A DNA stretch of 64,000 nt from an uncultured Acidobacteriia bacterium (GTDB lineage Bacteria; Acidobacteriota; Terriglobia; Bryobacterales; Bryobacteraceae), in contig CAINNJ010000043.1 in NCBI GenBank assembly GCA_903851195.1, positions 1 to 64,000 on the forward strand, given 5' to 3'. The notes under the pieces were generated by a model. It was not told the DNA's origin. It saw only the letters and a list, made by a program, of their open reading frames with translations, and did not search any database. Made by a program: the position numbers and the translations under genes. Position 1 is the stretch's first letter; the number at the start of each line of letters is the position of its first letter. Below are positions 18,260 to 33,191 of this stretch, piece by piece.

Positions 18260-18296
18260 GCCATGGCGAAGCGATTGCTCGCTGCTTCGCCATGGC
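18260..18296 (+). promoter_or_regulatory. Perfect 13-bp hairpin covering the start codon of the first aldo-keto reductase
   Basis: GCCATGGCGAAGC (18260-18272) and GCTTCGCCATGGC (18284-18296) are exact inverted copies with an 11-base loop. The ATG of the aldo-keto reductase gene (18292-18294) is inside the right arm, and no Shine-Dalgarno sequence is visible outside the structure. In RNA this would hide the start codon. It may alternatively serve as a terminator for the secreted protein gene ending at 18223. Confidence 0.6.
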
Positions 18297-19290
18297 CGGC
18301 GCAGAAATTCCCCAGCGTACTCTTGGCAAAACTTCCCTCCGCGTCTCCGCGCTCACTCTCGGCGGGCATCATCTCGGCAACACGAAGAGCGAGCAGGAAT
18401 CCCTCCGCATCATCGATGAAGCCTTCGACGGCGGCATCACCACGTTTGACAACTGCTGGGAATACCATCTGGGTGCCACCGAAGTCATGCTGGGCAAGGG
18501 GCTCAAAGGCAAACGCGACAAAGCAATCATCATGACCAAAGTCTGCACGCACGGTCGCGATAAAGACCTCGCCATGCAGATGCTCGAACAGTCCCTCCGC
18601 CGCCTCCAGACCGACCATCTCGATGTCTGGCAGATCCACGGCGTCACCTTCTATAACGATCCCGACCTTTTCATCCGGCCCAACGGCGCCGCCGAAGCGC
18701 TCACTCTCGCGAAGAAGCAGGGCAAGGTCCGCGCCGTCGGCTTTACCGGCCACAAAGACCCGCGCATTCACCTCGCCATGCTGGCCACCAACTTCCCGTT
18801 CGATACCTGCCAGTTCCCCCTCAATCCCATGGACGCGAATTTCCGCAGCTTCGAACGCATGGTGATTCCCGAATGCACCCGCCGCGGCATCGCGATGCTG
18901 GGCATGAAGCCCATGGGAGGCACCGGCGACATGATCACCAAAGGCGCTCTCACCGCCGAGGAATGTCTGCGTTACGCCATGAGTCTTCCGGTCGCCACCA
19001 CCATCGCCGGCGTGGACAAACTCGAAGTGCTGCACCAGAATCTCGAAATCGCGCGCGCCTTCCAGCCGATGGCGCCCGCCGAAATGCAGGCCCTCCGCGA
19101 TCGCGTGAAGACGGACGCCGGCGACGGCCACTTCGAACTCTACAAGACTTCCATCAAATACGACAACCCGGAAGCCCGTCTGGCCCATCAGTTCCCGCTC
19201 GATCCGAAGAGCAACGAAGTCCAGGAAATGATCTCCGCCACGAAGAACACCGGCAAGCCTTACACCACGCTCCCGCAACCCGCGAAATAA
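18292..19290 (+). CDS. Aldo/keto reductase, cytosolic
   Basis: 332 residues forming a complete (beta/alpha)8 aldo-keto reductase. The catalytic tetrad can be placed as Asp in TTFDNCWEYH, Tyr in the same block, Lys in AIIMTKVC and His in VWQIHGVTF. It reduces aldehydes or ketones with NADPH or interconverts sugar derivatives. There is no export signal, in contrast to the downstream paralogue. The start codon is within a strong hairpin. The second aldo-keto gene begins 14 bases after this stop, so the two are probably co-transcribed. Confidence 0.9.
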   Translation: MAGAEIPQRTLGKTSLRVSALTLGGHHLGNTKSEQESLRIIDEAFDGGITTFDNCWEYHLGATEVMLGKGLKGKRDKAIIMTKVCTHGRDKDLAMQMLEQSLRRLQTDHLDVWQIHGVTFYNDPDLFIRPNGAAEALTLAKKQGKVRAVGFTGHKDPRIHLAMLATNFPFDTCQFPLNPMDANFRSFERMVIPECTRRGIAMLGMKPMGGTGDMITKGALTAEECLRYAMSLPVATTIAGVDKLEVLHQNLEIARAFQPMAPAEMQALRDRVKTDAGDGHFELYKTSIKYDNPEARLAHQFPLDPKSNEVQEMISATKNTGKPYTTLPQPAK

Positions 19291-19304
19291 ACGGTTCCAG
19301 TCCC

Positions 19305-20324
19305 ATGAAATCCACATCCAAATCCGGCACCACCCGCCGCCGCTTCGTGAAAGGGTCCGCGCTCGCCGGCGCCGGCCTGGCCTTCGCCCAGCAAACCGCG
19401 GACATTCCGAAGCGGCCACTCGGCAAGACCGGCCTGCAGACGTCGATCTTGGGCGTCGGCGGCTATCACATCGGCACTGCCGAAGACGACGCCACCGGCG
19501 CGCGCATCATCCATGAAGCCATCGATCACGGCATCAACTTTTTCGACAACGCCTGGGAATACCATCAGGGCCTCAGCGAAGAGCGCATGGGCAAAGCGCT
19601 GGTGGGCCGCCGCGACAAAGTCATCCTGATGACCAAGCTCTGCACTCACGGCCGCGATAAAAAAGTCGCCATGCGCCAACTCGAAGAGTCGCTCGTAAGA
19701 CTGCGCACGGATCATCTGGACATCTGGCAGGTCCACGAAGTCGTCTACGATGACGACCCCGAGAGAATCTTCGCGCCCGGCGGCGCCATCGAAGCTCTCG
19801 AAGACGCGAAAAAGCAGGGCAAAGTGCGCTTCGTGGGCTTCACCGGCCACAAAGATCCGGACATCCACCTGAAGATGCTGGAACGAAATTACCCGTTCGA
19901 CACCGTGCAGATGCCGCTCAACATCCTCGACGCCACCTACGCCCGCAGCTTTCAGAAGCTGGTGCTCCCCGAACTGGTGCGCCGCGACATCGCGCCGCTC
20001 GGCATGAAGAGTCTCTGCGGCAGCGGCGAACCAGTGAAGAACGGGGTCTACACCGCCGAGGAAGGCATCCGCTACGCCATGAGTGTTCCCGGTGTCGCCG
20101 TCACCATCAGCGGCATGGAATCCCCCGAAATCCTGCAGCAAAACCTCAAAATCGCCGGCGGCTTCCAGCCTTTAAAACAGCAGCAAATGTCGCAACTCGC
20201 CGACCGCGCGCATCTCTACGCCGCCGACGGCCGCTACGAGCTCTTCAAATCGACGAAGAAGTACGATGGCGATCTGGGCCGTGAACAGCATCAGTTCCCG
20301 GTCTCCGAAGAGCTTCCGGCGTAG
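19305..20324 (+). CDS. Aldo/keto reductase with Tat signal
   Basis: 339 residues. A twin-arginine-type leader (TTRRRFVKGSALAGAGLAFA) precedes an aldo-keto reductase domain that closely resembles the upstream gene: FFDNAWEYHQG, VILMTKLCTHGRDKK and IWQVHEV carry the Asp/Tyr, Lys and His residues. Tandem duplication followed by gain or loss of the export signal is the simplest history. Exported aldo-keto reductases with Tat leaders are frequent in Acidobacteriota and Planctomycetes; the substrates are unknown. The 3' end overlaps the convergent phosphatase gene by 80 bases. Confidence 0.9.
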   Translation: MKSTSKSGTTRRRFVKGSALAGAGLAFAQQTADIPKRPLGKTGLQTSILGVGGYHIGTAEDDATGARIIHEAIDHGINFFDNAWEYHQGLSEERMGKALVGRRDKVILMTKLCTHGRDKKVAMRQLEESLVRLRTDHLDIWQVHEVVYDDDPERIFAPGGAIEALEDAKKQGKVRFVGFTGHKDPDIHLKMLERNYPFDTVQMPLNILDATYARSFQKLVLPELVRRDIAPLGMKSLCGSGEPVKNGVYTAEEGIRYAMSVPGVAVTISGMESPEILQQNLKIAGGFQPLKQQQMSQLADRAHLYAADGRYELFKSTKKYDGDLGREQHQFPVSEELPA

Positions 20325-20871: not shown

Positions 20872-21756
20872 TCAGGAATACCGTCGCACCATGCTCGCAC
20901 AGAAGTCCGCGAACTCCCCCGGCTCCCGTGGTGGACTCGTATGATTCGGCTGCAACCCCGCATGCTCCGGCGTAAAGCAAAACGTCACTGTAACCTCGAA
21001 ATCTTCCAGCGCCTTCATCTGCCGGTCGAACCACTTCATCGCATCGGGACGAAAGCTGTCCGCCCAGCTCAACCCCGTGCGCACATGCTTCACGCCCAGT
21101 TCCTTCAACCGCGAAACGGCGTCATCCAGCCGGTGGTCTTCGTAATGGAACCACTGGCAGATCCCGAACTCCGGCGTATACTCCCGAAACTGTTCAAAAG
21201 CGAGCTTTGGTGTGCCGTCTTCCCGCAGCAGGCCCATATAAAAGTGCCGATAGTAAGACGAACCTTCCGCCTCCCGATGCCGCGTCGTCGCCGGCCAGGC
21301 CCGAGGCAGATCGTACAGACTGTACCAGTGCACGCGCTCCGCCCGCCCCCGCAACAACTCGGCCGTCCGGCGCAAACCAAACTCCTGCACCTCCTCGGCG
21401 CCGAACGTCGACACCCCCACTTCGGACACCCACAACGGAAGCTCCGTCACCGCCCGGATCTCCGCCAGTTTCGTCGGCCACTCATTGATGGTCCAGTGAT
21501 TCCAGTCGAGCGGAAAGCCGTGCACCGCCACCACGTCCACATGCTTCAGCACGCACTGCCGCTGCATGTTCTTCAGAAACTGCGGGTCAATCGGCGAAAT
21601 CCCGCCCAGTACGCGCGGCAGCCGGGAATTTTCCGCCCTCACCGCGTTCGCCGCCAGCTTCACCATTTCCGCGAATATCTTCCAGTCCGGGTCGATCTCA
21701 AAATTCCAGTGCGACAGGTTGTTCGGCTCGTTCCACAACATCGCTGCTTCAACCAC
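20872..21756 (-). CDS. Glycoside hydrolase-like TIM barrel, apparently circularly permuted
   Basis: 294 residues. The protein opens with MLWNEPNN, the strand-4 acid/base motif of clan A glycosidases (Glu10), and has a second Glu at 112 in WVSEVG, a good nucleophile candidate. Residues 198-294 (FGICQWFHYEDHRLDDAV..., TGLSWADSF, VTFCFTPEHAG, EFADFCASMVRRY) line up with residues 14-114 of the fusion protein at 29977-32016, while residues 3-190 line up with its residues 118-300. So strands 1-3 of the barrel come after strands 4-8. The GTG start at 21756 is supported by AAGGAG five bases upstream. It overlaps the methyltransferase end by eight bases. Annotation pipelines would probably call it beta-xylosidase; the substrate is unknown. 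Confidence 0.75.
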   Translation of the reverse strand: MVEAAMLWNEPNNLSHWNFEIDPDWKIFAEMVKLAANAVRAENSRLPRVLGGISPIDPQFLKNMQRQCVLKHVDVVAVHGFPLDWNHWTINEWPTKLAEIRAVTELPLWVSEVGVSTFGAEEVQEFGLRRTAELLRGRAERVHWYSLYDLPRAWPATTRHREAEGSSYYRHFYMGLLREDGTPKLAFEQFREYTPEFGICQWFHYEDHRLDDAVSRLKELGVKHVRTGLSWADSFRPDAMKWFDRQMKALEDFEVTVTFCFTPEHAGLQPNHTSPPREPGEFADFCASMVRRYS

Positions 21757-22471
21757 GCGAACTCCTTCGCCGGCAAAGATAGACTTCCTCTTCCGGATGC
21801 GCCACAATCTCGAACCCCGCGCTGCGCAGCATCGCCTCGGCGCACGCGCGATTCGGAATCCACCAGTTCGTCGGATCCCCGGAATAGCGCTCCTCCACGA
21901 AATACATCGCCGGATAGCCAGGCTCTCCGAACACCGCGGTCTCCGCGAACGGATAATCCGCCTGCAACCGCGCCACCTCTTTGCTGCCGCGCTGCATCGA
22001 TTGAAAAATCATCAGGTCGCGCGCCACATGCTCATGAATCAGATCCAGCGCCAGCAGCGGATGCCGCAGGTGATACAGCACGCCCATGAAGAGCACCACA
22101 TCGAAGCGCTCCTGTAAGCGGGCCACATCATAGACATCCATCTCCCGGAATTCCACCTCCAGGCCGGACACCTCCGCGGCGAACCGCGCCTGCGCCAGAT
22201 ATCCCGAATCCGAATCGATACCCAGCACCCGCGCCGCGCCCCGCCGTTTCATCTCGAACGAATAAAACCCCGCGTTGCAGCCGATCTCCAGCACCGTCTT
22301 GCCCGTCAGATCCGCCGGCACGGCATCCCGGAAATTCGCCCACTTGATAGCGGGATAGTCGCCCAGAAAATGATGCGGCGCCGTCCACACGCCGCCCAGT
22401 TCCATGTTCTGGAACCACTCGCCCAGTTCGCGAATGCGCGTCCCCACGTCCTCCTGAGAAAGAGTTGTCAC
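21749..22471 (-). CDS. SAM-dependent methyltransferase (TIGR04290-like)
   Basis: 240 residues. Motif I is VLEIGCNAGFYSFEM, followed by VLGIDSDSGYLAQARF (motif II acid) and FDVVLFMGVLYHLRHP. The N-terminal RELGEWFQNMEL and C-terminal TNWWIPNRACAEAMLRSAGF are like the TIGR04290 methyltransferases which, from memory, are linked to the radical SAM/glycosyltransferase cluster called 'rhizo-twelve'. Sequence around HFLGDYPAIKWANF also resembles tRNA wobble methyltransferase CmoB relatives. The GTG start overlaps the preceding stop (GTGA at 22468-22471). It probably methylates a sugar of the cluster's glycan. Confidence 0.85.
   Translation of the reverse strand: MTTLSQEDVGTRIRELGEWFQNMELGGVWTAPHHFLGDYPAIKWANFRDAVPADLTGKTVLEIGCNAGFYSFEMKRRGAARVLGIDSDSGYLAQARFAAEVSGLEVEFREMDVYDVARLQERFDVVLFMGVLYHLRHPLLALDLIHEHVARDLMIFQSMQRGSKEVARLQADYPFAETAVFGEPGYPAMYFVEERYSGDPTNWWIPNRACAEAMLRSAGFEIVAHPEEEVYLCRRRSSRG
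21757..21767 (-). promoter_or_regulatory. Shine-Dalgarno site fixing the start of the permuted barrel gene
   Basis: On the minus strand AAGGAG (21767-21762) stands five bases before the GTG at 21756. It is inside the 3' end of the methyltransferase gene. It is one of the clearest ribosome sites in the window and shows that the protein really begins just before the WNEP motif, not at a lost upstream half-barrel. Confidence 0.6.
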
Positions 22472-23214
22472 GCCACCTTCTTTCCCGACAAATGCCGCTG
22501 CTCGGATAACATCTTCATCGCCTCCACATAGCCGTCCATGGTGCCCACGTCGTAATAACTCACGCCCGCCGGAACGCCCCACGCTTCCCCGCCACGCTCC
22601 AGCCAGGCGTTCACCAGCGTTCCCAGATACTCGTCGCTCCGCCCGCGTTCCACCCACAAATCGAACAGCTCCTGCAGCGTCCTCCCGGGCAGCTTGAACG
22701 CTCCCCAAATCCGGTTCGACTTCGCCTCCGGATCCTTCACCCGTATGCGCAGAACTCGTCCCTGTTCATCGCACTCCACGGAATCGAAAAACTGCGGCTC
22801 TTTCACCGGGAATAACAAAAACGGAAACCGGTCGTCCGGCAACGCCGCCAGCCCGTCGTCCGGAAACCAGATCGTGTCCGGCAAACCCACCAGCACCGGC
22901 TGATCCGGCACAATCACAGGCAACCCGCGAAAGATTGCGTCGCACAACCCCGCCGGCTGCGGCTGCACCGTATAACAAATCGACGCCGACCACGCCGACC
23001 CGCCGTAATACTCCAGAATGTCCGACTTATCCGCCGAAATCACGAAGCAGATTCGCGTCGCCCCCGCAATCGTGAAACGCTCCATCAGAAAATCGCTCAC
23101 CGCGCGCGGACGCCGCACCTCGCCCTCATACGTCCCCATCGGCAGCAGTTCTTTCGAAAACGCCAGCGGCTGAATCCGGCTGCCTTTCCCCGCCGCCGGA
23201 ATTATGCCCCACAT
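22468..23214 (-). CDS. Sugar-phosphate nucleotidyltransferase
   Basis: 248 residues beginning MWGIIPAAGKGSRIQPLAFS, the G-x-G-x-R nucleotide-binding signature of glucose-1-phosphate uridylyl/thymidylyltransferases, with KELLPMG close behind. VGLPDTIWFPDD supplies the metal-binding Asp, and SYYDVGTMDGYVEAM is the usual C-terminal block. It makes a nucleotide sugar, most likely UDP-, dTDP- or CDP-linked. The start at 23214 is preferred over one at 23247, since it begins at the conserved strand. It overlaps the upstream glycosyltransferase by 13 bases. Confidence 0.87.
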   Translation of the reverse strand: MWGIIPAAGKGSRIQPLAFSKELLPMGTYEGEVRRPRAVSDFLMERFTIAGATRICFVISADKSDILEYYGGSAWSASICYTVQPQPAGLCDAIFRGLPVIVPDQPVLVGLPDTIWFPDDGLAALPDDRFPFLLFPVKEPQFFDSVECDEQGRVLRIRVKDPEAKSNRIWGAFKLPGRTLQELFDLWVERGRSDEYLGTLVNAWLERGGEAWGVPAGVSYYDVGTMDGYVEAMKMLSEQRHLSGKKVA

Positions 23215-24305
23215 ACCGCGCCCGCCTCCACCGCCATCGACTTCCACGCGCCCAGAACATTCTCCAGTTCCAGCGCCCTCACGTCCGCCGTATGCAGCGC
23301 CAGCGTGCGCTCCCGCGCGTTGCGGCCGATCCGCGCCAGTTCCTCCGGCGACCGCAGCAGCGCCGCAACCGCATCGTCCGCCGACCGCCCGATCAGGATC
23401 TCCCGCCCCGGCGAATAGAACGTCTCAATCCCTTCCCAGACATCGCTCAGCACCGGCACGCCGCAGGCAGAAGCCTCGAAAAGCCGTCCTGATGGACAAT
23501 AGCCCATCTCCGCCATCGGCCCCCGCGTCACATTGAGAGTCAGTCCCGCCGAGCAGTAAAAATCGGGGTGCTGCGCCGGCGTCAGATGTCCCACGAAGTA
23601 AATATTCGGCAGCCACGGAAAATCGCTGTTGTAAGACGACCCGCCCATCAAAAACCCACGCTCCGGCATCCTCTCCGCCGGTTCGATAAACAGCGCCCGC
23701 AAAGCCGCATCCCGGTCCGCCGAGTAAGTCCCCATATAAGAGAGCCCCGCCCCGTAATCCGCCTGCGCTCCGGTCGGCTTATGAATATCCGGGTCCACGC
23801 TGCCGTACAGAGGAGCCACGCGAGGCGCGCCCAGCACCCGCCGCAGTTCGGTCAGGGTCCGGCCGCCCGCATAACTCAGCACCAGATCGAAATCCCGATA
23901 GCCGCGCGGTCCCACATACTCCACCTGCTCCCCCTTCGCGATCCGAGCCAGGGTTACCGGCGAATCCATGTCATAGAACACCCGCGCGGGACACACCGAA
24001 TGCAGCACCATCTCCGACGCCTGCAAAGCGTCCGGACAGTACGATGTCACCAGCGCCGCATCCGCCTCGTCCACATGCCGCCGGGCCAGCGCCTGCACCG
24101 CTTCCCAGCTCTCGTACAGCACCAGTTCGCCGCCCCCCGGAAGTTCCGTCAAATCCCTGGCGGACGAATACCACGGAACATCCCGCTCGAAAAACACAAC
24201 GTCATGGCCTTGGCGTCCCAGCGACGCGCAGAGCCCGCGCCACAGCGTCGCGTGACCGTTGCCCCAGGAAGAACTGACGCTCAGGCCGAAGATGACCAGC
24301 TTCAT
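23202..24305 (-). CDS. CgeB-like glycosyltransferase 1
   Basis: 367 residues with two Rossmann-like halves of a GT-B fold. The N-terminus MKLVIFGLSVSSSWGNGHAT and the C-terminal block PSGRLFEASACGVPVLSDVW followed by EGIETFYSPGREILI are typical of the CgeB/COG4641 glycosyltransferases, where the Glu in FEA contacts the nucleotide sugar. It is the closest paralogue of the next gene upstream, sharing SSWGNGHAT and the TLNVTR/TLNITR block. Donor and acceptor are unknown. The start overlaps the upstream stop by four bases (ATGA). Confidence 0.87.
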   Translation of the reverse strand: MKLVIFGLSVSSSWGNGHATLWRGLCASLGRQGHDVVFFERDVPWYSSARDLTELPGGGELVLYESWEAVQALARRHVDEADAALVTSYCPDALQASEMVLHSVCPARVFYDMDSPVTLARIAKGEQVEYVGPRGYRDFDLVLSYAGGRTLTELRRVLGAPRVAPLYGSVDPDIHKPTGAQADYGAGLSYMGTYSADRDAALRALFIEPAERMPERGFLMGGSSYNSDFPWLPNIYFVGHLTPAQHPDFYCSAGLTLNVTRGPMAEMGYCPSGRLFEASACGVPVLSDVWEGIETFYSPGREILIGRSADDAVAALLRSPEELARIGRNARERTLALHTADVRALELENVLGAWKSMAVEAGAVCGA

Positions 24306-25387
24306 ATCGACAACGCCTTTGCACTCCGCGCGCCCGCTTCCGCGTAATGCTGTTCCAGCTGCACGGCCCGCCTCTCCGGCGTATGCTCCGCGACAATCCT
24401 CTTCCTCGCCCGCTGCCCCAGCACGCGGCGCTGCGCATCGGAGAAATCCCGCAGATACCGGAGCGTGTCCTCCGGCCCCGAAGCCAGCAAAATCTCATAG
24501 CCCGGTTCGAAGATCGTGTCGAGACCGGTCCACCAGTCGCTGATCAGCGGCACCCCGCAGGCCCCCGCCTCGAACAACCGCACGCTCGGCGAATACCCGG
24601 CCGCCTTCATCGCGTCCCGCGTGATGTTCAGCGTAAAGCGCTGCGAACTGTAAAACTCCGGATGCTCGCGCGGCGACAGATGAATCGTCCTCTCCACATT
24701 CGCCGGCCATGGAATCGTCTCCGGATACATCGGCCCCGCCACCGCGAACCGCCCCTCCGCGCATCGCCGCGCCGGCTCCAGCAGCAGCGCCTCCAGCGAC
24801 GGCTGACGGTCGTCGCTGTAAGTGCCCAGATACCCCAGATCCCACCGCGTCGCCCGCGTCAACGGCCGGTACTGCCGAGGATCCACCGAACAATACAGCG
24901 CCCGCGCCATGGGCGAGCCGAACCGCTGTTCGATCCGCCGCAGCGTGGGTCCGCCCGTGAACGATAGATACAAGCCGTAGGCCGCAATCAGCTCGGCCGT
25001 CACGTAAGCGCACTCACCGCGGCCCAACTGCTCCAGCGTCACCGGCGTATCGATATCGTAGAACGCGGTGACGCCCTCCGCGACCTTCGTCACCCACCGG
25101 CCCACCGCAATGCCGTCCGGCACGAAGGAACCGACAATCACCAGGTCCGCATGCCGGACCTGCTGTTCATATTTCCCGAACAGCTCCTCCACGCTCTGGT
25201 ACAACTCCGTCCGCGCCCCCTGCGGCCGCGGCGTATCCCGATTCCCCGCATACCACTCGGTATCGCGCTCCAGAAACAGAATCTCGTGCCCGCGCCCCGC
25301 CAACCCCTGCACCAGACTCCGGTACGTTGTCGCATGCCCGTTCCCCCAGGACGAGGTAATCGACAGGCCAAGAATCGCGATCCTCAT
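24302..25387 (-). CDS. CgeB-like glycosyltransferase 2
   Basis: 361 residues, GT-B fold, beginning MRIAILGLSITSSWGNGHAT. VRLFEAGACGVPLISDWWTG and FEPGYEILLA are the C-terminal donor-binding block. SFTGGPTLRRIEQRFGSPMARALYCSVDP matches the equivalent segment of glycosyltransferase 1, so the two probably arose by tandem duplication. The ATG at 25387 is the conserved start; a frame extending to 25840 overlaps the next gene. Start and stop each overlap the neighbouring gene by four bases. Confidence 0.87.
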   Translation of the reverse strand: MRIAILGLSITSSWGNGHATTYRSLVQGLAGRGHEILFLERDTEWYAGNRDTPRPQGARTELYQSVEELFGKYEQQVRHADLVIVGSFVPDGIAVGRWVTKVAEGVTAFYDIDTPVTLEQLGRGECAYVTAELIAAYGLYLSFTGGPTLRRIEQRFGSPMARALYCSVDPRQYRPLTRATRWDLGYLGTYSDDRQPSLEALLLEPARRCAEGRFAVAGPMYPETIPWPANVERTIHLSPREHPEFYSSQRFTLNITRDAMKAAGYSPSVRLFEAGACGVPLISDWWTGLDTIFEPGYEILLASGPEDTLRYLRDFSDAQRRVLGQRARKRIVAEHTPERRAVQLEQHYAEAGARSAKALSI

Positions 25388-26475
25388 GACGCCACCCCGA
25401 CCCACCGCGCCGCATGACCTTCCAGGATGCCCTCCACCTGCGCCGCCCGATGCGCGTACGTGTGTTGCGCCAGCACGCGCCGGTAAGCCGCCCGGCCCAC
25501 TTCGCGCGCCCGTTCCCGCGTCAGTGCGCGCAGATGCCGCGCCACGCCGAACCCGTCCTCCGCCACCAGAATCTCCCGGCCCGGCTCGAAGAACTCTCCG
25601 ATTCCCGTCCAGCTGTCCGTGATGAGGCACGCCGCAGCGCCCGCCGCCTCGAACACACGCGTCGCGGGAGAAAACCCGTACGCCGCCATGCTCTCCCGCG
25701 AGATGTTCACCACCGCCAGCGGCGTGCAGTTGAACGCATTGTGATCGCGCGTATACACATGGTCCAGATACTGAATATTCGGCGGCATCGGCTTGTCTCC
25801 CCAGCCCGCCCCGCCCAGCAAAAACTGCATCCCGGGACACAGGCAGGCCGCGGTAATGAAGAACTCCTCCACGCGCCGCTCGCGGTCCGGCAGACGGTTC
25901 CCCAGAAAGCCCAGGCTCCCCTCGAAACGCGGATCGGGAGCCACCGGATAATGCGTCGAAGGGTCCAGCGCGTTATACACCGGAACACACGTTCGCGCCC
26001 CCAGCGCCTCATACGCCTTCACCACCGGAGCGCCTCCGCCGTAGGTGAGCACGGCATCGAACTGCGGAATCCGCTCGCGAAACACATCCCGCGGATCGCC
26101 GGCCGTCCGGTTCAGCGTGGCGGGCGCGTCCACATCCCAGAACACCACCAGATTCGAACTGCGCTTCAGTTCCGGAACCGCGCCTTCCAGCAACTCATCG
26201 AACACGCCCACACCACTCGCCTTCACGATCAGATCCGCGCCCGCCGCATCGTCCAAAGCTTCCCGCACCGAAGCCTCTGCAGCCGGATACACCACCACCT
26301 TCGCCCACGCCGGATCTTCCATATCCCGATGCGCCTGACGCTCGTACGCGTCCGGTTCATAGAACGTGATCCGGTGACCGCGTTCCGCCATCGCCCGCAG
26401 CATGCCCCTGTAATAAGTCGCCGCGCCGTTCCAGTACGCGGAAACCAGACTCGACCCAAAGAAAGCAATGTTCAT
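25384..26475 (-). CDS. CgeB-like glycosyltransferase 3
   Basis: 363 residues beginning MNIAFFGSSLVSAYWNGAAT, which has the same S-x-x-x-S-x-W-x-G pattern as its neighbours but is more distant. VFWDVDAPATLNR in the middle is equivalent to the FYDMDSP and FYDIDTP segments of the other two. ATRVFEAAGAAACLITDSWT followed by FFEPGREILVAED forms the donor block. It is one of four consecutive CgeB-like transferases in this operon. The ATG at 26475 overlaps the upstream stop. Confidence 0.86.
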   Translation of the reverse strand: MNIAFFGSSLVSAYWNGAATYYRGMLRAMAERGHRITFYEPDAYERQAHRDMEDPAWAKVVVYPAAEASVREALDDAAGADLIVKASGVGVFDELLEGAVPELKRSSNLVVFWDVDAPATLNRTAGDPRDVFRERIPQFDAVLTYGGGAPVVKAYEALGARTCVPVYNALDPSTHYPVAPDPRFEGSLGFLGNRLPDRERRVEEFFITAACLCPGMQFLLGGAGWGDKPMPPNIQYLDHVYTRDHNAFNCTPLAVVNISRESMAAYGFSPATRVFEAAGAAACLITDSWTGIGEFFEPGREILVAEDGFGVARHLRALTRERAREVGRAAYRRVLAQHTYAHRAAQVEGILEGHAARWVGVAS

Positions 26476-27590
26476 CCGTTCTGTCTTCCCTGTGCCGCCA
26501 TCGTTTTTTCCTCTCCCGCGATCGCGATCAGTTCGTTCATCCGGTGCGCGCACGTATGCCGGCTGCGAATCGTCTCCAGCCCGCACGCAGCCAGATCCCG
26601 CGCCAGTTCGTCGTCCCCCAAAACCCGCCGCAGTTGCCGCGTCATCTCTTCCCCGTCCCGCGCGAAAAGAAAATCGCGCCCCTCGCGAAACAGCCGCTCA
26701 CTGTCCCGCCACGGCGCCGACACCAGCGGAATCCCGCACGCCATTGCCTCGAACGGCCGGATCGTCGGGATCCCCGGCAGCGCCCGCGCATAAGGCCGCC
26801 GCGGGATATGCACCGTCGCCCGATACCGCGCGAACACCTCCGGCGCCTCGTAGTTCGGCAGATACCCGCCATACTCGATCCCCGCCGCCGCCAGCGCTTC
26901 CCGGGCCTCGTCCGGATACCGCACGCCATACACCTTCGCCCGCAGTCCCAGCGCCTTCACAGGCCCGATCAGAAACTCCCGGATCTCTTCGGTCCGTTCC
27001 CCGTCGCCCCAGTTCCCGATCCACACCACATCGCCCACCTTCGGCCCCCGGTTCAGCGGACGAAACACCGATGTATCGGCTGCCTCATGCCACGTCCACG
27101 CATCGCGCGCCCAGCCGTTGCGCAGATACAAATCCCGGATTACTTTGCCATAAGCCAGCACGCCATCGTAATGCTGCAAGTCATAGGCCGCCATGGCTTC
27201 CGGCTCTGTCACGCTGCGGTGGTGCGTGTCGTGAAAATACAACCGGTAAAACGGATACAACCGGTGATGCTCACCAACCCGCCGGACCAGCGCCGGCGTG
27301 TTCCACTCATGCACCAGCACCACATCGGCGGTCTCCAGAATCGCCGAAAGATTCAGCGTCGTCTCGTCATACAGCGTGCTCTGCAGCAGCGGATACGCGT
27401 TCTCAAAGGCCGCAATCGCCGCCTCCCCGTGTTCCCGCAGCAGATTCTCCCGGCTCCAGCCATCCTCCGGCTCGAAGATCCGGACCTCATGCCGCGCCCG
27501 CACCATTGCCGTCGCCAACCCCCGCAGGAAATGCGCATTCCCGTGATTCCAGTCGGAAACCAGGGAATGCGTGAAGATCACGAAACGCAT
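26472..27590 (-). CDS. CgeB-like glycosyltransferase 4
   Basis: 372 residues beginning MRFVIFTHSLVSDWNHGNAH. It keeps the family pattern at both ends (PTIRPFEAMACGIPLVSAPW followed by FREGRDFLFARDG), with VLVHEWN and YFHDTHHRSV in the first half. Longer loops set it apart from the three downstream paralogues, so it may act on a different acceptor. It overlaps the upstream GT4 gene by 13 bases and the downstream gene by four. Confidence 0.86.
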   Translation of the reverse strand: MRFVIFTHSLVSDWNHGNAHFLRGLATAMVRARHEVRIFEPEDGWSRENLLREHGEAAIAAFENAYPLLQSTLYDETTLNLSAILETADVVLVHEWNTPALVRRVGEHHRLYPFYRLYFHDTHHRSVTEPEAMAAYDLQHYDGVLAYGKVIRDLYLRNGWARDAWTWHEAADTSVFRPLNRGPKVGDVVWIGNWGDGERTEEIREFLIGPVKALGLRAKVYGVRYPDEAREALAAAGIEYGGYLPNYEAPEVFARYRATVHIPRRPYARALPGIPTIRPFEAMACGIPLVSAPWRDSERLFREGRDFLFARDGEEMTRQLRRVLGDDELARDLAACGLETIRSRHTCAHRMNELIAIAGEEKTMAAQGRQNG

Positions 27591-28693
27591 GCGAACTTCC
27601 TCATCGCGGCGTTCTCATACAGCCGGAAGTACTGCGCAGCCGTGCGCGAAGAATCATACTGCAGCGCCCGCTCATAGCCGCACCGCGCGTACTCCTCCCG
27701 CCGCGCCGGATCGGCAATCAGCGACTCCAGAGCTTCCCGCAACGCCCCCGCATCCGCCGGATCCACGAACACCGCGCTGTCCCCCCAGATCTCCCGCAGG
27801 CTTTCGATATCGCCCAGCACCAGCGCGCATCCCGAAAGCGCGGCCTCCAGCACCGACAGCCCGAACGGCTCGTAGCGGGCCGGCAACGCGTAAATCGCCG
27901 CGCGCGCATACCAGTCCCGCATCTCGCTGGCCGATAACCATCCGGTCATCCGGCAGCCGCCGAACTCCACCGGATCCGACGTCGATCCCGCGGGCGGCCT
28001 GCTCTCCCCCGCCGCGTATACCGGCCACGAAAGCGACCCCGCGATACGCGCGACACCAGCCGTATTCTTCGCCTCGTCCCAAAGCCGCCCCGCCGTAAAA
28101 ACAAACGGCTCCTTCTCTCCTCGGCGATACGCCCCGGCAGGCCGACCGTTCGGAATCACCTGCCAGGCCCCGTCCGGAACGTCATACAGAGACAACGAAC
28201 GCCCCATCGCGTGCGAAGGCACCGTCACCACATCCACGCCTCGAAACGCAGCCTTCACCTCCTCGCGATATCGATTCCACCGCGCCGGAGCCGCTTCGCC
28301 CTTCACCGCCAGCCACCACGAAAGCACGCACGAGTGCGCCGTCAAAACCGTCGCGGCCTGAAACGGACACACCCCCTGCCCATACGAATTCAGATGAATC
28401 ACATCCGGCCGGAACTCACGCTCCAGGCGCAGCAGCCACTCCCGCGATTGCGCCACGTCTAACCAGGGATCCTCCATCCACTCCAGCCGGTACTCACCTG
28501 CCGCGATCCGCAGCCCCGGATTCCGCGCCGCCTCCGCCCGCTGTCCCTCCGAAGGCAGCCCGCCCAGAGTCGCCAGCAGGACCTCCACGCCGTGCTCCCG
28601 AGCCAGACATCCCGCCAGATCCAGCGCGAACGTCCACACCCCACCCACCGTGTCCGTGGTCATCAGAACCCGGTGCACCGAATCCTCAACCAT
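27578..28693 (-). CDS. Family 4 glycosyltransferase
   Basis: 371 residues. The N-terminus VLMTTDTVGGVWTFALDLAG is the glycine-rich acceptor loop of GT4/GT-B enzymes. YALPARYEPFGLSVLEAALS carries the E-x7-E donor-binding motif. FVFTAGRLWDEAKN is the usual strand at the domain boundary. It transfers a sugar from a nucleotide donor to the growing glycan. It overlaps the radical SAM gene upstream by eight bases. It is the only GT4-type enzyme in the cluster; the other four are CgeB-like. Confidence 0.9.
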   Translation of the reverse strand: MVEDSVHRVLMTTDTVGGVWTFALDLAGCLAREHGVEVLLATLGGLPSEGQRAEAARNPGLRIAAGEYRLEWMEDPWLDVAQSREWLLRLEREFRPDVIHLNSYGQGVCPFQAATVLTAHSCVLSWWLAVKGEAAPARWNRYREEVKAAFRGVDVVTVPSHAMGRSLSLYDVPDGAWQVIPNGRPAGAYRRGEKEPFVFTAGRLWDEAKNTAGVARIAGSLSWPVYAAGESRPPAGSTSDPVEFGGCRMTGWLSASEMRDWYARAAIYALPARYEPFGLSVLEAALSGCALVLGDIESLREIWGDSAVFVDPADAGALREALESLIADPARREEYARCGYERALQYDSSRTAAQYFRLYENAAMRKFACVS

Positions 28694-29996
28694 TCACACC
28701 GCCACCGGTCTCCAGCTGCACCGTTTCCAGTTGCACAAGCGGAGCGGGCCGCTGCTCCTGAATATCGCTGAACTCATCGAACCGCGACAGATAGAACCGG
28801 TGCGCCCGCTCCCAAGCCTGGTCGTCCGGCCGACCCCACCGCTTCGTGTAATCGGGCGATCCCGGATACGGAAACAGCGGCACCGGCTGATTCGCCCAGA
28901 CCCCGTGCCGCAACAAATGCTGCCGCCACTCCTCCACCTGCTCCGGATCGTCATCGCTCGAATCCAGCAGATTCGCCTGCACGAACGGCACGCCCGCCTG
29001 CTCCTTCGCGAAAATCAGACGCCGCGACAGCTCCTCGGTGGACGCCTTGCACTTCTTGTCCAGCCGCGACCGCCCCGCCTCCGTGATGCTCTCCACGCCG
29101 GCCTCGATCGACACGCACCCCGCCGCCCCCAGCAGCGTCAGCATCTTCTCGTTCCACAGATCGATCCGCGTCTGCACGCCGAACTTGATATTCCGCGCGC
29201 GGATCACTTCCAGCACGTCCGCGTAAGCCAGAAAAATCTCGTCGATGAAGTACACGTAATCCACGCCGCACCGCACCAGCCCGTCCAGCTCTTCCGCGAT
29301 CACCTCCAGCGGCCGCCGCCGGAAACCGTTCCGGAAGTTATCCTTCGCGCAGAACGTGCAGTGATACGGGCACCCACGGGACGTCTCCATCTCCGCCCCA
29401 GGCCCCTCCGGCGGAACATCGAACCGGTGATGATGGTGCCGGTGCCGCTCGATCGTCTGCCGCTCCCAGAACAGCGCCGGCAGTTTCGACAGATCCGCCG
29501 CGTGCGGCCCGCCCTGCTCCACCACCCGGTCGCCACTCCGATAACAGATCGACTCCACCGTACTCCACGGCCGCACCAGCTTCGGCAGCACTTCCTCGCA
29601 CTCGCCCATCACCACCACATCCGCGCCCAGCTTCCGCAGCGTCGCTCGCGGCGTTGTCGACCCGTGCGGACCCACCGCCACCAGCACGCCGCCCGCCCCG
29701 CGCACCGCATCCATCACCTGCCGCGGCGCCCGCAACTCCGGCGGAGCGCAGCGCCAGAACAGATAACTGGGCGCCGTCGTCACCACCGTAAAGTCCGGCG
29801 CGAAAGCCTCCGTTCGCGACCGCACCTCGTCCGGCGTCAGACCGTCCAGTTGTCCATCCAACACCAGAACTTCATGACCTTCCCGCTCCAGCAGCGCTTT
29901 CGAATACCCGTATTCCAGCGGCAGATGAGGCTCCCGGCATCCAAAATAGATACTGGCTTCGAACGTCCACGGTGGATTAATGAGGCAGTAGCGCAT
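28686..29996 (-). CDS. Radical SAM protein with B12-binding-like N-terminal domain (TIGR04295-like)
   Basis: 436 residues. The 4Fe-4S cluster cysteines are Cys209, Cys213 and Cys216 (CPYHCTFC). The first ~140 residues look like a cobalamin-binding Rossmann domain (LEREGHEVLVLDGQL, FTVVTTAPSYLFWR, LGADVVVMGECEEVLPKL), but the classic DxHxxG lower-ligand motif is absent, so cobalamin would be bound base-off or not at all. A His-rich segment (HRHHHHR) lies at 185-191. I recall TIGR04295 as a B12/radical SAM family of the 'rhizo-twelve' system. It probably performs C-methylation or another radical change on a sugar. It overlaps the fusion gene by 20 bases. Confidence 0.88.
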   Translation of the reverse strand: MRYCLINPPWTFEASIYFGCREPHLPLEYGYSKALLEREGHEVLVLDGQLDGLTPDEVRSRTEAFAPDFTVVTTAPSYLFWRCAPPELRAPRQVMDAVRGAGGVLVAVGPHGSTTPRATLRKLGADVVVMGECEEVLPKLVRPWSTVESICYRSGDRVVEQGGPHAADLSKLPALFWERQTIERHRHHHHRFDVPPEGPGAEMETSRGCPYHCTFCAKDNFRNGFRRRPLEVIAEELDGLVRCGVDYVYFIDEIFLAYADVLEVIRARNIKFGVQTRIDLWNEKMLTLLGAAGCVSIEAGVESITEAGRSRLDKKCKASTEELSRRLIFAKEQAGVPFVQANLLDSSDDDPEQVEEWRQHLLRHGVWANQPVPLFPYPGSPDYTKRWGRPDDQAWERAHRFYLSRFDEFSDIQEQRPAPLVQLETVQLETGGGVNG

Positions 29997-32016
29997 GCAT
30001 CCCTTCCGCGGCGGACAGCGTCTGCGGAACGCTCACCCGCGGCGTCTTCGCCAGCCAGCGGTACAGCAGTTCCACCCCCTGCCGCGCATTCACCTTGGGC
30101 GACCACCCGGTCGCCGCTTTGAACCGCCGAGTGTCGGACACGTAATAGCGCTGGTCCGCGCAACGCCACGGTTCCATCCGGACCTCCGGCCTTGCACCAT
30201 GAATCTCCGCGATGATGTCCAGCAGTTCAATAAGACTGATCGTGTTCCCCAATCCCCCGCCGATATTGAATGCCTGCCCGGAAAGCGTATGGATATTCGC
30301 GTGCGCCAGCAGAAACGCATCCACCAGATCGTCCACGAACAGCAGATCCCGCACCTGCATGCCGTCCCCGTAAAGCACAATCGGCTTGCCCGCCAGCGCC
30401 CGCAGCAGGAAATGCGCGACCCACCCCTGATCCTCCGTTCCCATCTGGTGGAACCCGTAAATACAGCTCATCCGGAACACCACCGCCGAGAGCCCGAAGG
30501 TGCGCGCATAGTCGAGCACATACTGATCCGCCGCGCCCTTCGAACATCCGTAAGGACTGTGAAAATCGAGCGGACGCTCCTCGCTCACACCGCTTCGCAG
30601 CCCTGCTTCCAGCGGCTGATAACGCGTGCGGTTCTTCTCGAGCGCCAGATCCGCCAGTGACCCGTACACCTTATTCGTCGACGTAAACAGCAGCGGCGGC
30701 GGACTCTCCAGCGCCCGAATCTCTTCCAGCAGATTCAGCGTCCCGCCCACGTTCACTTCGAAATCCAGCAGCGGATCCACCAGACTCGTCGTCACCGCCA
30801 CCTGCGCCGCGAAATGGAACACCCGCTCCGCCCCGCGCACCGCCGTCTTCAGCGTCTGCCGGTTCCGGATATCCGCAATCTCCACCCGCAGCCGTTCCCC
30901 GTGCGCCTCCCGCAGCCACGCCAGATTCCGCTCCACGCCCGGCCGCGAAAGATCGTCGTACACCAGCACGGACTTCCCCGAAGACAGCAGCCGGCTCGCC
31001 AGATTCGTGCCGATAAAACCCGCGCCGCCCGTAATCAGCACATGGCGCTGTCCCGACCCCGCCAACGGCACCGAGGGCTTCTGCCGCACCGCCTTGCGCA
31101 CCGCCTCCACGCCGCCCTTCGACCACACACTGAACAGCAGTTTCGGACTCCCGTCCGCGCGCTGCAGGCCATAGTGATACTCGCGTTCATCGGAGTGGAA
31201 CGTATCGGTTGCCGAGCGCTCACTATCCTGCGTCTCCTTCCAGTAAACGCGTTCCACAGGCGCGCTCACGGCATCCACGAAGGCCTTTGCCTGAGCCTTC
31301 TCATCGTCCCTCCACGTCGGGAAACCCGTCGCCGTGATCCACAACTCCGGCTTGTGGCCCATGCGATCGAGCGCCCCCCGGATCGCCGCCGCTTCCGCCT
31401 TCCAGCCCTTCCACGCGAACTCCGGCGCGCCCGGAAATCCCTGCATTCCCACCGCGTCGATGTAATTCAAAACCCCGCGCTCCTGCATCATCCGCAGCCA
31501 GCCGGTATTCGAAGGCCAGAGCGCCGGCAACACCGTCTTCTTCCCCCGCGTACGAGCCCAGTACGCCGCCCCGCCGATCATCTCGCTGAACACGCGCCAT
31601 TCCGGATCCAGCCGCGCATCCCACTCGTTTAAATCGTCCGGACGGTTCCACAGTTCCAGCCATTCGAAATGCTTGCCGAAACGCGTGATAATCACATCGA
31701 TGAAATCCGCATAAGCTTTCGGCGTCTGTGGCGGCGATGAAAACTTCGGCACCACTCCCAGGCACGGCGGCGTGTAAAGGAAGCAGGGCAGCACGTTGAC
31801 CTCTTTGGCCAGCGCCGGCAGCAGCCACGCATACCAGCCGTCGCCCTCGGACGTAAACCACTCCGCCCACGACACCGCGGTGCGCAATTCCGTCACTCCC
31901 AGCGCCCGCGCGGCCGCCAGCACGCTCTCCACCCTTTCGAACTCGCCCGGCCGAAACCACTCCACCAGCCCGATTCGCGGACCCCCGTCTTCGCGAGGAA
32001 AGGGATGCGTCGTCAT
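29977..32016 (-). CDS. Fusion: degenerate glycosidase-like TIM barrel plus NAD-dependent sugar epimerase
   Basis: 679 residues. Residues 1-305 form a clan A glycosidase-like barrel in normal order, but the acid/base site reads ELWNRPDD (Arg125 where Glu is expected) and the nucleophile strand reads LWITATGF (Ala229 where the stand-alone relative at 20872-21756 has Glu112). Residues ~324-679 are an extended SDR: GGAGFIG at 330-336, STNKVYG, and YGCSK with the catalytic Tyr and Lys, similar to CDP-paratose/UDP-glucose 4-epimerase types. The barrel may bind the glycan or tether the epimerase without cutting. The ATG at 32016 overlaps the upstream stop (ATGA). Confidence 0.85.
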   Translation of the reverse strand: MTTHPFPREDGGPRIGLVEWFRPGEFERVESVLAAARALGVTELRTAVSWAEWFTSEGDGWYAWLLPALAKEVNVLPCFLYTPPCLGVVPKFSSPPQTPKAYADFIDVIITRFGKHFEWLELWNRPDDLNEWDARLDPEWRVFSEMIGGAAYWARTRGKKTVLPALWPSNTGWLRMMQERGVLNYIDAVGMQGFPGAPEFAWKGWKAEAAAIRGALDRMGHKPELWITATGFPTWRDDEKAQAKAFVDAVSAPVERVYWKETQDSERSATDTFHSDEREYHYGLQRADGSPKLLFSVWSKGGVEAVRKAVRQKPSVPLAGSGQRHVLITGGAGFIGTNLASRLLSSGKSVLVYDDLSRPGVERNLAWLREAHGERLRVEIADIRNRQTLKTAVRGAERVFHFAAQVAVTTSLVDPLLDFEVNVGGTLNLLEEIRALESPPPLLFTSTNKVYGSLADLALEKNRTRYQPLEAGLRSGVSEERPLDFHSPYGCSKGAADQYVLDYARTFGLSAVVFRMSCIYGFHQMGTEDQGWVAHFLLRALAGKPIVLYGDGMQVRDLLFVDDLVDAFLLAHANIHTLSGQAFNIGGGLGNTISLIELLDIIAEIHGARPEVRMEPWRCADQRYYVSDTRRFKAATGWSPKVNARQGVELLYRWLAKTPRVSVPQTLSAAEGMHALLPH

Positions 32017-33131
32017 ACCATCAAACCCCGCGCCGCCAGTTCGCCGCGAGCCTCCATACCGTGATCCACCGCGCTCTGACTTTCCAGCCACCCCGCCAGC
32101 ACTTCCAGACCCTGCTCCAGCGTCATCCGTGGCTCCCAGCCGAGCACCTCACGCGCCAGCGAAATATCCGCGAAGCAATGCCGGATATCGCCCACCCGGT
32201 ATTTCCCGGTAATGTCCGGTTCCATGTCGTTTCGCCCCAGAGCCCGGATGGTCCGCAGCGCCACATCCTTCACCGTCATCGGCACCCCGCTCGAAATATT
32301 AATCGCCAACCCCGGCGCGCGCGGCGATTCCAGCGCCAGCCAACAAGCCTCCGCTACGTCATACACGCTGACGAAATCCCGCATCTGCAGACCGTCTTCG
32401 AAAATCAGCGGCGCTTTCCCGTTTAATACCCGCGAAGCGAAGTTACTCAGCACGCCGGTATAGGGATTCGAAAGCGCCTGATAAGGCCCGTAAGTATTGA
32501 AAAACCGCAGCGCCACCGCCGGAATCCCGTAAGCCCGGCCAACCATCAGACACATCCGTTCCTGGTCGTACTTGGAAAGTGCGTAAACGGACGCCAGCGC
32601 GGGCGCCTTATCCTCCGGCGTCGCCACCGGCGTCAGTAGCTCGCCATCCTTGCCGCGCACTTCCCAGTCGCCGATCTTCAACTGCTCGATTTTCCGGTCC
32701 TGCGCCGCCTGCACCGCTCCGCCGGCATCCCGATACAACCCCTCGCCATAAATACTCATGCTGGAAGCGACCAGCAGCCGCTCTACCGGATGCCGCGTCA
32801 GAGCCTGCAGCAGCGCCGCCGTCCCCAGATTGTTGACGCTCGTATACTCCTCGATCTGGTACATGCTCTGACCCACGCCCACCAGCGAAACCAGATGAAT
32901 CACCGCATCCACCTGCTGCAGAGCCCGCGCCAGCGCCGCGGGATCCCGCACGTCCCCGATCTGAAGTTCCACCTCCGAAGACAAGTACTCCGGACGCTTC
33001 TGACCCGGCCCGTGCACCTGGGGAACAAGACTGTCCAGAGCTCTTACCCGATAGCCTTGCGACAGTAACTTATTGGCGACGTGGGCGCCGATAAATCCGG
33101 CCCCACCGGTAATAAGAACTTTCCTGCTCAT
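32013..33131 (-). CDS. NAD-dependent epimerase/dehydratase
   Basis: 372 residues. The Rossmann motif GGAGFIGAHVANKL is at about 9-22, VASSMSIYGEG carries the catalytic Ser/Thr region and VYALSKYDQERM the Tyr and Lys. It belongs to the extended SDRs acting on nucleotide sugars; the insert between residues 135 and 180 is characteristic of dehydratase/epimerase relatives. It is the first gene of the twelve-gene cluster. The ATG at 33131 is preferred because AGAAGG is about eleven bases upstream, whereas the in-frame GTG at 33140 would sit too close to it. Confidence 0.88.
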   Translation of the reverse strand: MSRKVLITGGAGFIGAHVANKLLSQGYRVRALDSLVPQVHGPGQKRPEYLSSEVELQIGDVRDPAALARALQQVDAVIHLVSLVGVGQSMYQIEEYTSVNNLGTAALLQALTRHPVERLLVASSMSIYGEGLYRDAGGAVQAAQDRKIEQLKIGDWEVRGKDGELLTPVATPEDKAPALASVYALSKYDQERMCLMVGRAYGIPAVALRFFNTYGPYQALSNPYTGVLSNFASRVLNGKAPLIFEDGLQMRDFVSVYDVAEACWLALESPRAPGLAINISSGVPMTVKDVALRTIRALGRNDMEPDITGKYRVGDIRHCFADISLAREVLGWEPRMTLEQGLEVLAGWLESQSAVDHGMEARGELAARGLMV

Positions 33132-33191
33132 GCTGGGCACAACCTTCTACAACTCTGGTTCCATACCTCGCACAAACAGAACCACTTCCCG

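Follow-up and report, generated by a model that had tools for sequence, protein, structure and literature searches.

A circularly permuted GH39-like barrel conserved within glycan gene clusters of distant bacteria

Can a glycosidase-type triosephosphate isomerase (TIM) barrel be encoded with its strands in a rotated order, and is such a gene a genuine variant of the fold or a broken copy of it? The question is raised by a gene at positions 20872..21756, on the minus strand of a 64,000-nucleotide stretch (the window) of contig CAINNJ010000043.1 (GenBank assembly GCA_903851195.1), from an uncultured Acidobacteriia bacterium. Its open reading frame (ORF) runs from a GTG at 21756 to a TGA at 20872-20874 and encodes 294 amino acids, and an AAGGAG ribosome-binding site (21762..21767, minus strand) precedes the GTG with a 5-base spacer, as a first-pass annotation of this DNA had read it. 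That annotation proposed that barrel strands 4-8 come first in the protein and strands 1-3 last, an order that is now backed by swapped alignment, by profile matches to the solved enzyme PslG, and by an AlphaFold model. Residues 1-195 (21172..21756, minus strand) correspond to canonical strands 4-8 by all three lines of evidence, and residues 196-294 (20875..21171, minus strand) correspond to canonical strands 1-3 by swapped alignment and profile. The protein does not follow the canonical 1-8 order of glycoside hydrolase (GH) clan GH-A and is a permuted derivative rather than an ordinary member of the clan. We conclude that it is a naturally permuted and conserved clan GH-A/GH39-like barrel, a structural claim that is as firm as computation makes it. 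The rearranged gene is kept in sugar-assembly clusters of distant bacteria, so it appears to be a genuine and ancient reshuffling of a common enzyme fold rather than a broken gene. To the whole explanation, in which a natural permutation of single origin would have spread with its gene cluster as a retaining glycosidase or transglycosidase working inside the cell, we assign a probability of about 0.8.

A canonical-order comparator is encoded in the same window. The ORF at 29977..32091 (minus strand) encodes a fusion of a canonical-order GH39-like barrel (residues ~38-320) with a NAD-dependent epimerase (residues ~350-682). When the permuted protein was aligned locally with the first 345 residues of this fusion, numbered from its GTG at 32091, its residues 7-187 matched fusion residues 147-320 and its residues 198-293 matched fusion residues 41-138. 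The score for residues 1-195 was 225 (z 33) and that for residues 196-294 was 148 (z 24), and none of 1,000 shuffles scored as high in either case; the C-terminal part thus has the significant similarity to strands 1-3 that the permutation hypothesis predicts. The whole protein scored 358 against the fusion when swapped, as one colinear alignment with 88 identities in 291 columns, versus 225 unswapped. All four motif pairs quoted in the first-pass annotation occur in the swapped alignment, and the permuted and fused barrels have in common the motifs LRT..[SC]WA, LWNEPNN, HGFP, and W[IV]TE.G.ST. Swapped similarity extends to canonical relatives outside the fusion. We rotated the permuted protein at every position and sought the best cut for each canonical protein: the optimum fell at 185-201 for five of five fusion domains and at 185-215 for six of seven further canonical proteins (two of them fused domains), with two proteins that resemble PslG by eye at 193-201 and one protein (L148) giving a flat optimum from 117 to 251. 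When 146 matching ORFs were compared with hidden Markov models of the two orders, 117 (94 distinct) favored the permuted model and 27 (24 distinct) favored the rotated model, while two copies of one diverged domain scored equally on both.

Among solved structures, the best match by sequence is PslG of Pseudomonas aeruginosa (GH39; PDB 4zn2 and 5bx9), and the permuted protein is similar to characterized GH39 enzymes as judged by sequence. With a single sequence as the query, the PslG match improved from an E value of 3.2e-3 in the native order to 4.6e-9 after rotation. A profile of 48 permuted sequences, left unswapped, placed positions 198-293 on PslG residues 22-128 and positions 2-167 on residues 131-304, so that the two pieces abut at PslG 128/131. 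Together they reached an E value of 3.2e-7; alone, the strand 1-3 piece was weak (0.85) and the strand 4-8 piece gave 0.0056. The GH39 beta-xylosidase 4ekj matched the profile at an E value of only 0.68. Pfam yielded only a partial match to PF11790 (E value of 7.5e-5) for the permuted protein, and no NCBIfam model matched it up to an E value of 1.

A large family shares the permuted order, which is not private to the genome of the window. A scan of genome contigs returned at least 576 relatives (591 stretches), and the best 80, examined for order, were all permuted, as a homolog search suggested by the first-pass annotation was meant to reveal; each is colinear with the window's protein from residue 1 or 2 to residues 286-294 at 70-80% identity and reaches at least 563 bits with the permuted profile. 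The 80 are labeled as members of at least nine phyla, many of them being metagenome bins. Purifying selection acts on the gene, with nonsynonymous divergence (dN) of 0.14-0.16 against four relatives and synonymous divergence (dS) above 3.5 in two comparisons and saturated beyond computation in the other two.

The active site appears intact. Both glutamates that had been singled out as catalytic are kept, at the positions first given: Glu10 (codon 21727..21729, minus strand; motif WNEPNN), presumed by analogy with clan GH-A to be the acid/base of strand 4, and Glu112 (codon 21421..21423, minus strand; motif WVSEVG), presumed by the same analogy to be the nucleophile of strand 7. They align with the NEP and E.G motifs of PslG and of GH39-like proteins. 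Both are invariant in the 48 aligned permuted sequences and, among 117 distinct proteins from 149 loci, Glu10 is present in all and Glu112 in 116 by motif search and in the last (L169, WVAEVG) by eye. Arg226 (strand 2), Asn9, His79 (strand 6), and Trp144 (strand 8) are likewise invariant in all 48, and together with the two glutamates we take them to be the clan GH-A set. The clan hallmark, in which strand 4 ends with an Asn-Glu acid/base and strand 7 with a nucleophilic Glu, is found in both sequence and model.

These residues suggest a retaining beta-glycosidase or transglycosidase in which Glu10 serves as acid/base and Glu112 as nucleophile. The gene lies within an operon-like run that encodes TIGR04290 and TIGR04295 family proteins, a nucleotidyltransferase, glycosyltransferases, epimerases, and a histidine phosphatase, and the enzyme likely acts in the cytoplasm on the glycan of this TIGR04290/TIGR04295 cluster, much as PslG does for its own. 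Since the permuted chain starts at strand 4, it has no room for a signal peptide, and this, together with its place in a glycosyltransferase operon, makes intracellular trimming, editing, or recycling of the cluster's oligosaccharide or glycolipid the most likely role. It is possible, if improbable, that the permuted protein has given up glycosidase activity and instead binds a glycan or catalyzes a new reaction: the gene sits in a biosynthetic cluster, the sister domain lacks the catalytic residues in many genomes, and PslG has hardly any match to a highly conserved loop, ATTRHREAEGSSYYRHF. The retention of both glutamates in all 117 proteins and the invariance of the other four residues argue against such a change and for a working glycosidase.

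AlphaFold predicts from a single chain one (beta/alpha)8 barrel of eight alternating strands (predicted local distance difference test score of 89.6; predicted template modeling score of 0.89), in keeping with the single closed barrel expected by the first-pass annotation. Glu10 follows the strand at residues 2-8, Glu112 lies in the strand at residues 108-113, and linker residues 194-196 join helix 8 to strand 1. VIA-align superimposed model residues 1-195 on PslG with a root mean square deviation of 2.3 over 175 residues at 21% identity, and the canonical domain of the fusion matched clan GH-A enzymes over its whole length in structure comparison. The sequence and model show that the cut lies in the loop between helix 3 and strand 4 and that a linker of about three residues connects the old ends, at helix 8 and strand 1, with no barrel element lost. 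Helix-to-strand loops lie opposite the catalytic face of the barrel, so a cut in such a loop need not change the chemistry. The old and new ends adjoin, and a swap is sterically possible in which two half-barrels work in trans, with strands pairing between two chains in a domain-swapped dimer that contains no closed monomer. AlphaFold was run on one chain only, and the high confidence of that single-chain barrel and its short linker at 194-196 make a swapped dimer quite unlikely and speak for a closed, permuted monomer.

We evaluated the origin of the permuted order with a tree of 50 sequences out of 113 prepared: 29 permuted proteins, rotated and hand-picked for spread, 15 fused domains, and 6 GH39-like proteins. 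The GH39-like fragments L097 and L098, one diverged fused domain (L062, the same as L114), and repeat fetches of the same genes were kept out. Each group falls on one side of a branch, with support of 99/99 for the permuted, 100/98 for the fused, and 100/98 for the GH39-like sequences, and the permuted group is sister to the canonical fused domain when the GH39-like rows serve as the outgroup. The tree itself is unrooted, and the arbitrary root and long outgroup branches call for caution. A single origin of the permutation followed by spread is the simple reading of this tree of sequences; the event would coincide with, or postdate, the divergence of the permuted proteins from the canonical domain that is now fused to the epimerase. 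The reverse polarity, in which the permuted order came first in the family and the fused canonical domain arose by a further permutation, gains what footing it has from an unrooted tree that gives no direction without an outgroup. It is very unlikely, as PslG and the GH39-like proteins are canonical, the latter lie outside both groups, the fused domains lie outside the permuted clade, and two events would be needed instead of one. A member of the window's class (L096) is the most diverged permuted sequence seen (461 bits) and branches outside all other permuted rows.

The permuted rows of the tree are labeled as Acidobacteriota, Pseudomonadota, Myxococcota, Gemmatimonadota, Verrucomicrobiota, Bacteroidota, Chloroflexota, Nitrospirota, and Armatimonadota; the Pseudomonadota, Myxococcota, and Bacteroidota rows are backed by isolates, and most of the others are metagenome bins. 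In whole-genome samples, which overlap and some of which are centered on genomes already known to carry the gene, it was present in 6 of 297 genomes of the window's phylum and 13 of 120 of its order, in 12 of 398 of the phylum of a Methylobacterium genome, in 1 of 198 of the phylum of a Pontibacter genome, and in 24 of 297, 3 of 17, and 0 of 61 genomes of the orders of G611, G320, and G661, respectively. It also occurs on plasmids: 146 records match, 66 of them from Sinorhizobium, and the best place is 60-80% identical in 97 and below 60% in the other 49, which proved to be the fused domain where inspected. Among the plasmid matches listed, the product of the permuted gene is given as beta-xylosidase, glycosyl hydrolase, or hypothetical protein, or none is listed. 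The patchy distribution and short branches suggest that the permuted gene spread by transfer, together with the TIGR04290/TIGR04295 glycan cluster, through many phyla.

Two trivial explanations carry almost no weight. The first-pass annotation had argued that the gene is not truncated, and its start is indeed conserved just before strand 4 in 79 of the 80 loci (at the first aligned codon in 76 and one or two codons earlier in three; L026 has none there). A mis-started gene, whose real product would begin upstream and contain a whole canonical barrel plus a partial second one, is compatible with the window's frame being open for 84 codons upstream of the start. However, that upstream frame overlaps the methyltransferase gene, a stop codon closes the frame within 10 codons in 9 of the 80 loci and leaves no space there for strands 1-3, and no second barrel piece was found outside the main match in any of the 117 permuted ORFs read from stop to stop, the window's included. 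A single contig alone could not exclude an assembly artefact or a rearrangement confined to this genome, a negligible prospect given the same order and junctions in all 80 relatives of other assemblies, among them the complete chromosomes of Minicystis rosea and Sorangium cellulosum So ce26, and given the 97 plasmid records with 60-80% identity.

The fused canonical barrel has followed a different course. The window's copy carries Arg and Ala at the two catalytic Glu places (NRP and WITATG, against NEP and WITE.G in active-looking relatives), a loss beyond what the first-pass annotation had mentioned. The idea that the permuted and fused copies form an obligate pair was rejected: the fused domain is full-length in 12 of 50 genomes searched, drawn from the 80 with the permuted gene, and 5 genomes carry the fused domain with no permuted gene found there. 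Both glutamates are kept in 3 of 15 fused copies found alongside the permuted gene (14 genomes and one plasmid record, with the fragment L210 left out as its genome was already counted) versus 5 of 5 where none was found (Fisher p of 0.0036), a comparison confounded by kinship, as the intact copies are largely alphaproteobacterial kin. Fused copies on plasmid records of unseen chromosomal background keep both glutamates in 8 of 8 cases. The replacements differ among copies (R, H, Q, G, N, T, or P at one place and A, Q, or G at the other), which suggests several losses, and decay of the fused copy in the presence of the permuted gene is suggestive only. A broader scenario, which we consider tentative and less likely than not, is that a single old permutation made a second cluster glycosidase that took over catalysis where present, that the epimerase-fused canonical version decayed to a noncatalytic partner several times independently, that many phyla subsequently acquired members of the permuted clade, and that the breakpoint between strands 3 and 4, which is also that of the unrelated GH70 enzymes, hints at a favored opening site. 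We also observed a second cluster type (L089, L212, and L213) with a fused canonical domain, a UDP-glucuronate decarboxylase, and four glycosyltransferases; no permuted gene is listed nearby, and a TIGR04290 gene is present in L089 and L213 and a TIGR04295 gene in L212.

Few circular permutations of TIM barrels are known in nature. In the GH70/GH13 pair, conserved motif I lies on strand 3 and motif II on strand 4, and GH3 represents a swap of domain order. Like the permuted protein, the GH70 glucansucrases are natural permuted glycosidase barrels relative to GH13, as described in PMC8398850 and PMC9732880. Their break likewise falls between strands 3 and 4, as deduced from residue numbers that place motifs II-IV ahead of motif I (PMC8398850). 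In contrast to the permuted protein, however, the GH70 enzymes belong to clan GH-H, act on alpha-linkages, are large, multidomain, and usually secreted, and bear no close sequence relation to it. Transaldolase with class I aldolase, and thiaminase I with phosphonopyruvate hydrolase, are natural permuted TIM-barrel pairs but are not glycosidases (PMC2213659 and PMC2395249), and the latter source also lists beta-glucosidases among natural permutations. The CE4 deacetylase domain of PgaB resembles our protein as a permuted barrel enzyme of a biofilm polysaccharide system (PMC13366581), but it has an (alpha/beta)7 carbohydrate esterase fold, and the TIM barrel of PgaB is another domain. The first-pass annotation's remark that permuted TIM barrels are rare is fair; the cases met in the literature searched include GH70, transaldolase, and, as an (alpha/beta)7 barrel, PgaB CE4, and we found no permuted clan GH-A or GH39 enzyme described in the open-access literature searched.

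The closest functional parallel is PslG, which shares with the permuted protein the alignment of both catalytic glutamates and the location of a glycosidase gene within a glycosyltransferase cluster. PslG is described as intracellular and as affecting the localization and signaling of its own cluster's polymer (PMC9075953) and as a retaining endo-beta-glucosidase (PMC11912335). It differs in its canonical order and in its C-terminal beta-sandwich, an accessory domain found in GH39 structures (PMC6933502), whereas the permuted protein lacks this domain and is a bare 294-residue barrel. The epimerase-fused canonical barrel is the nearest group to the permuted proteins in the tree and differs from them by its order, its fusion, and the frequent replacement of its glutamates. 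While the best-known permuted glycosidases, those of GH70, are large alpha-acting enzymes, the family described here provides a compact, single-domain, and widely conserved clan GH-A case. As some genomes encode the canonical sister in the same cluster, natural proteins can be compared directly to learn how permutation affects folding, stability, and activity. Automatic annotation as "beta-xylosidase" masks the rearrangement, as no NCBIfam model matches the protein and Pfam covers only part of it.

The genes around the permuted gene, all on the minus strand, are closely packed. A histidine phosphatase gene (PF00300; 20245..20871) has its start adjoining the stop of the permuted gene, and a TIGR04290-family methyltransferase gene (21749..22708; E value of 1.2e-116 over ORF residues 89-312; 387.9 bits against a cut-off of 300) has a stop that overlaps the permuted gene's start by 8 bases. 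They are accompanied by a sugar nucleotidyltransferase (PF00483; 22468..23247), a PF13524 glycosyltransferase (26472..27590), a GT4-like glycosyltransferase (27578..28693; NCBIfam matches below curated cut-offs), and a TIGR04295-family B12-binding radical SAM protein (28686..29996; E value of 1.8e-216; 718.8 bits against a cut-off of 400). Three ORFs are termed glycosyltransferase-like by neighborhood only and have homologs in the same clusters: 23202..24305 and 25384..26586, which have no NCBIfam match, and 24302..25840, whose first third probably goes untranslated, as guessed from where the next start lies. A second NAD-dependent epimerase-like ORF (32013..33140) is named from the start of its sequence and its place in annotated clusters. 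A TIGR04290-like gene is the nearest upstream cluster gene, within 400 bases, in 60 of 77 loci with at least 1.5 kb of upstream sequence, with an estimated overlap in ten; in S. meliloti R11, the gene table, which is incomplete, lists none within 12 kb of the permuted gene. The open-access literature searched yielded nothing on either TIGR04290 or TIGR04295. In two annotated alphaproteobacterial clusters (L219, 14484-17927; L220, 9743-17948), an inositol-3-phosphate synthase gene stands beside the histidine phosphatase gene, which hints that the cluster might make an oligosaccharide or glycolipid with an inositol head. Neither of these two runs has a gene named as a polysaccharide polymerase or flippase, and the glucan genes mdoG and mdoH lie about 3 kb downstream of one of them. 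In the window itself, two tandem ORFs that resemble aldo/keto reductases, judging from their sequences, adjoin the cluster at 18292-20324.
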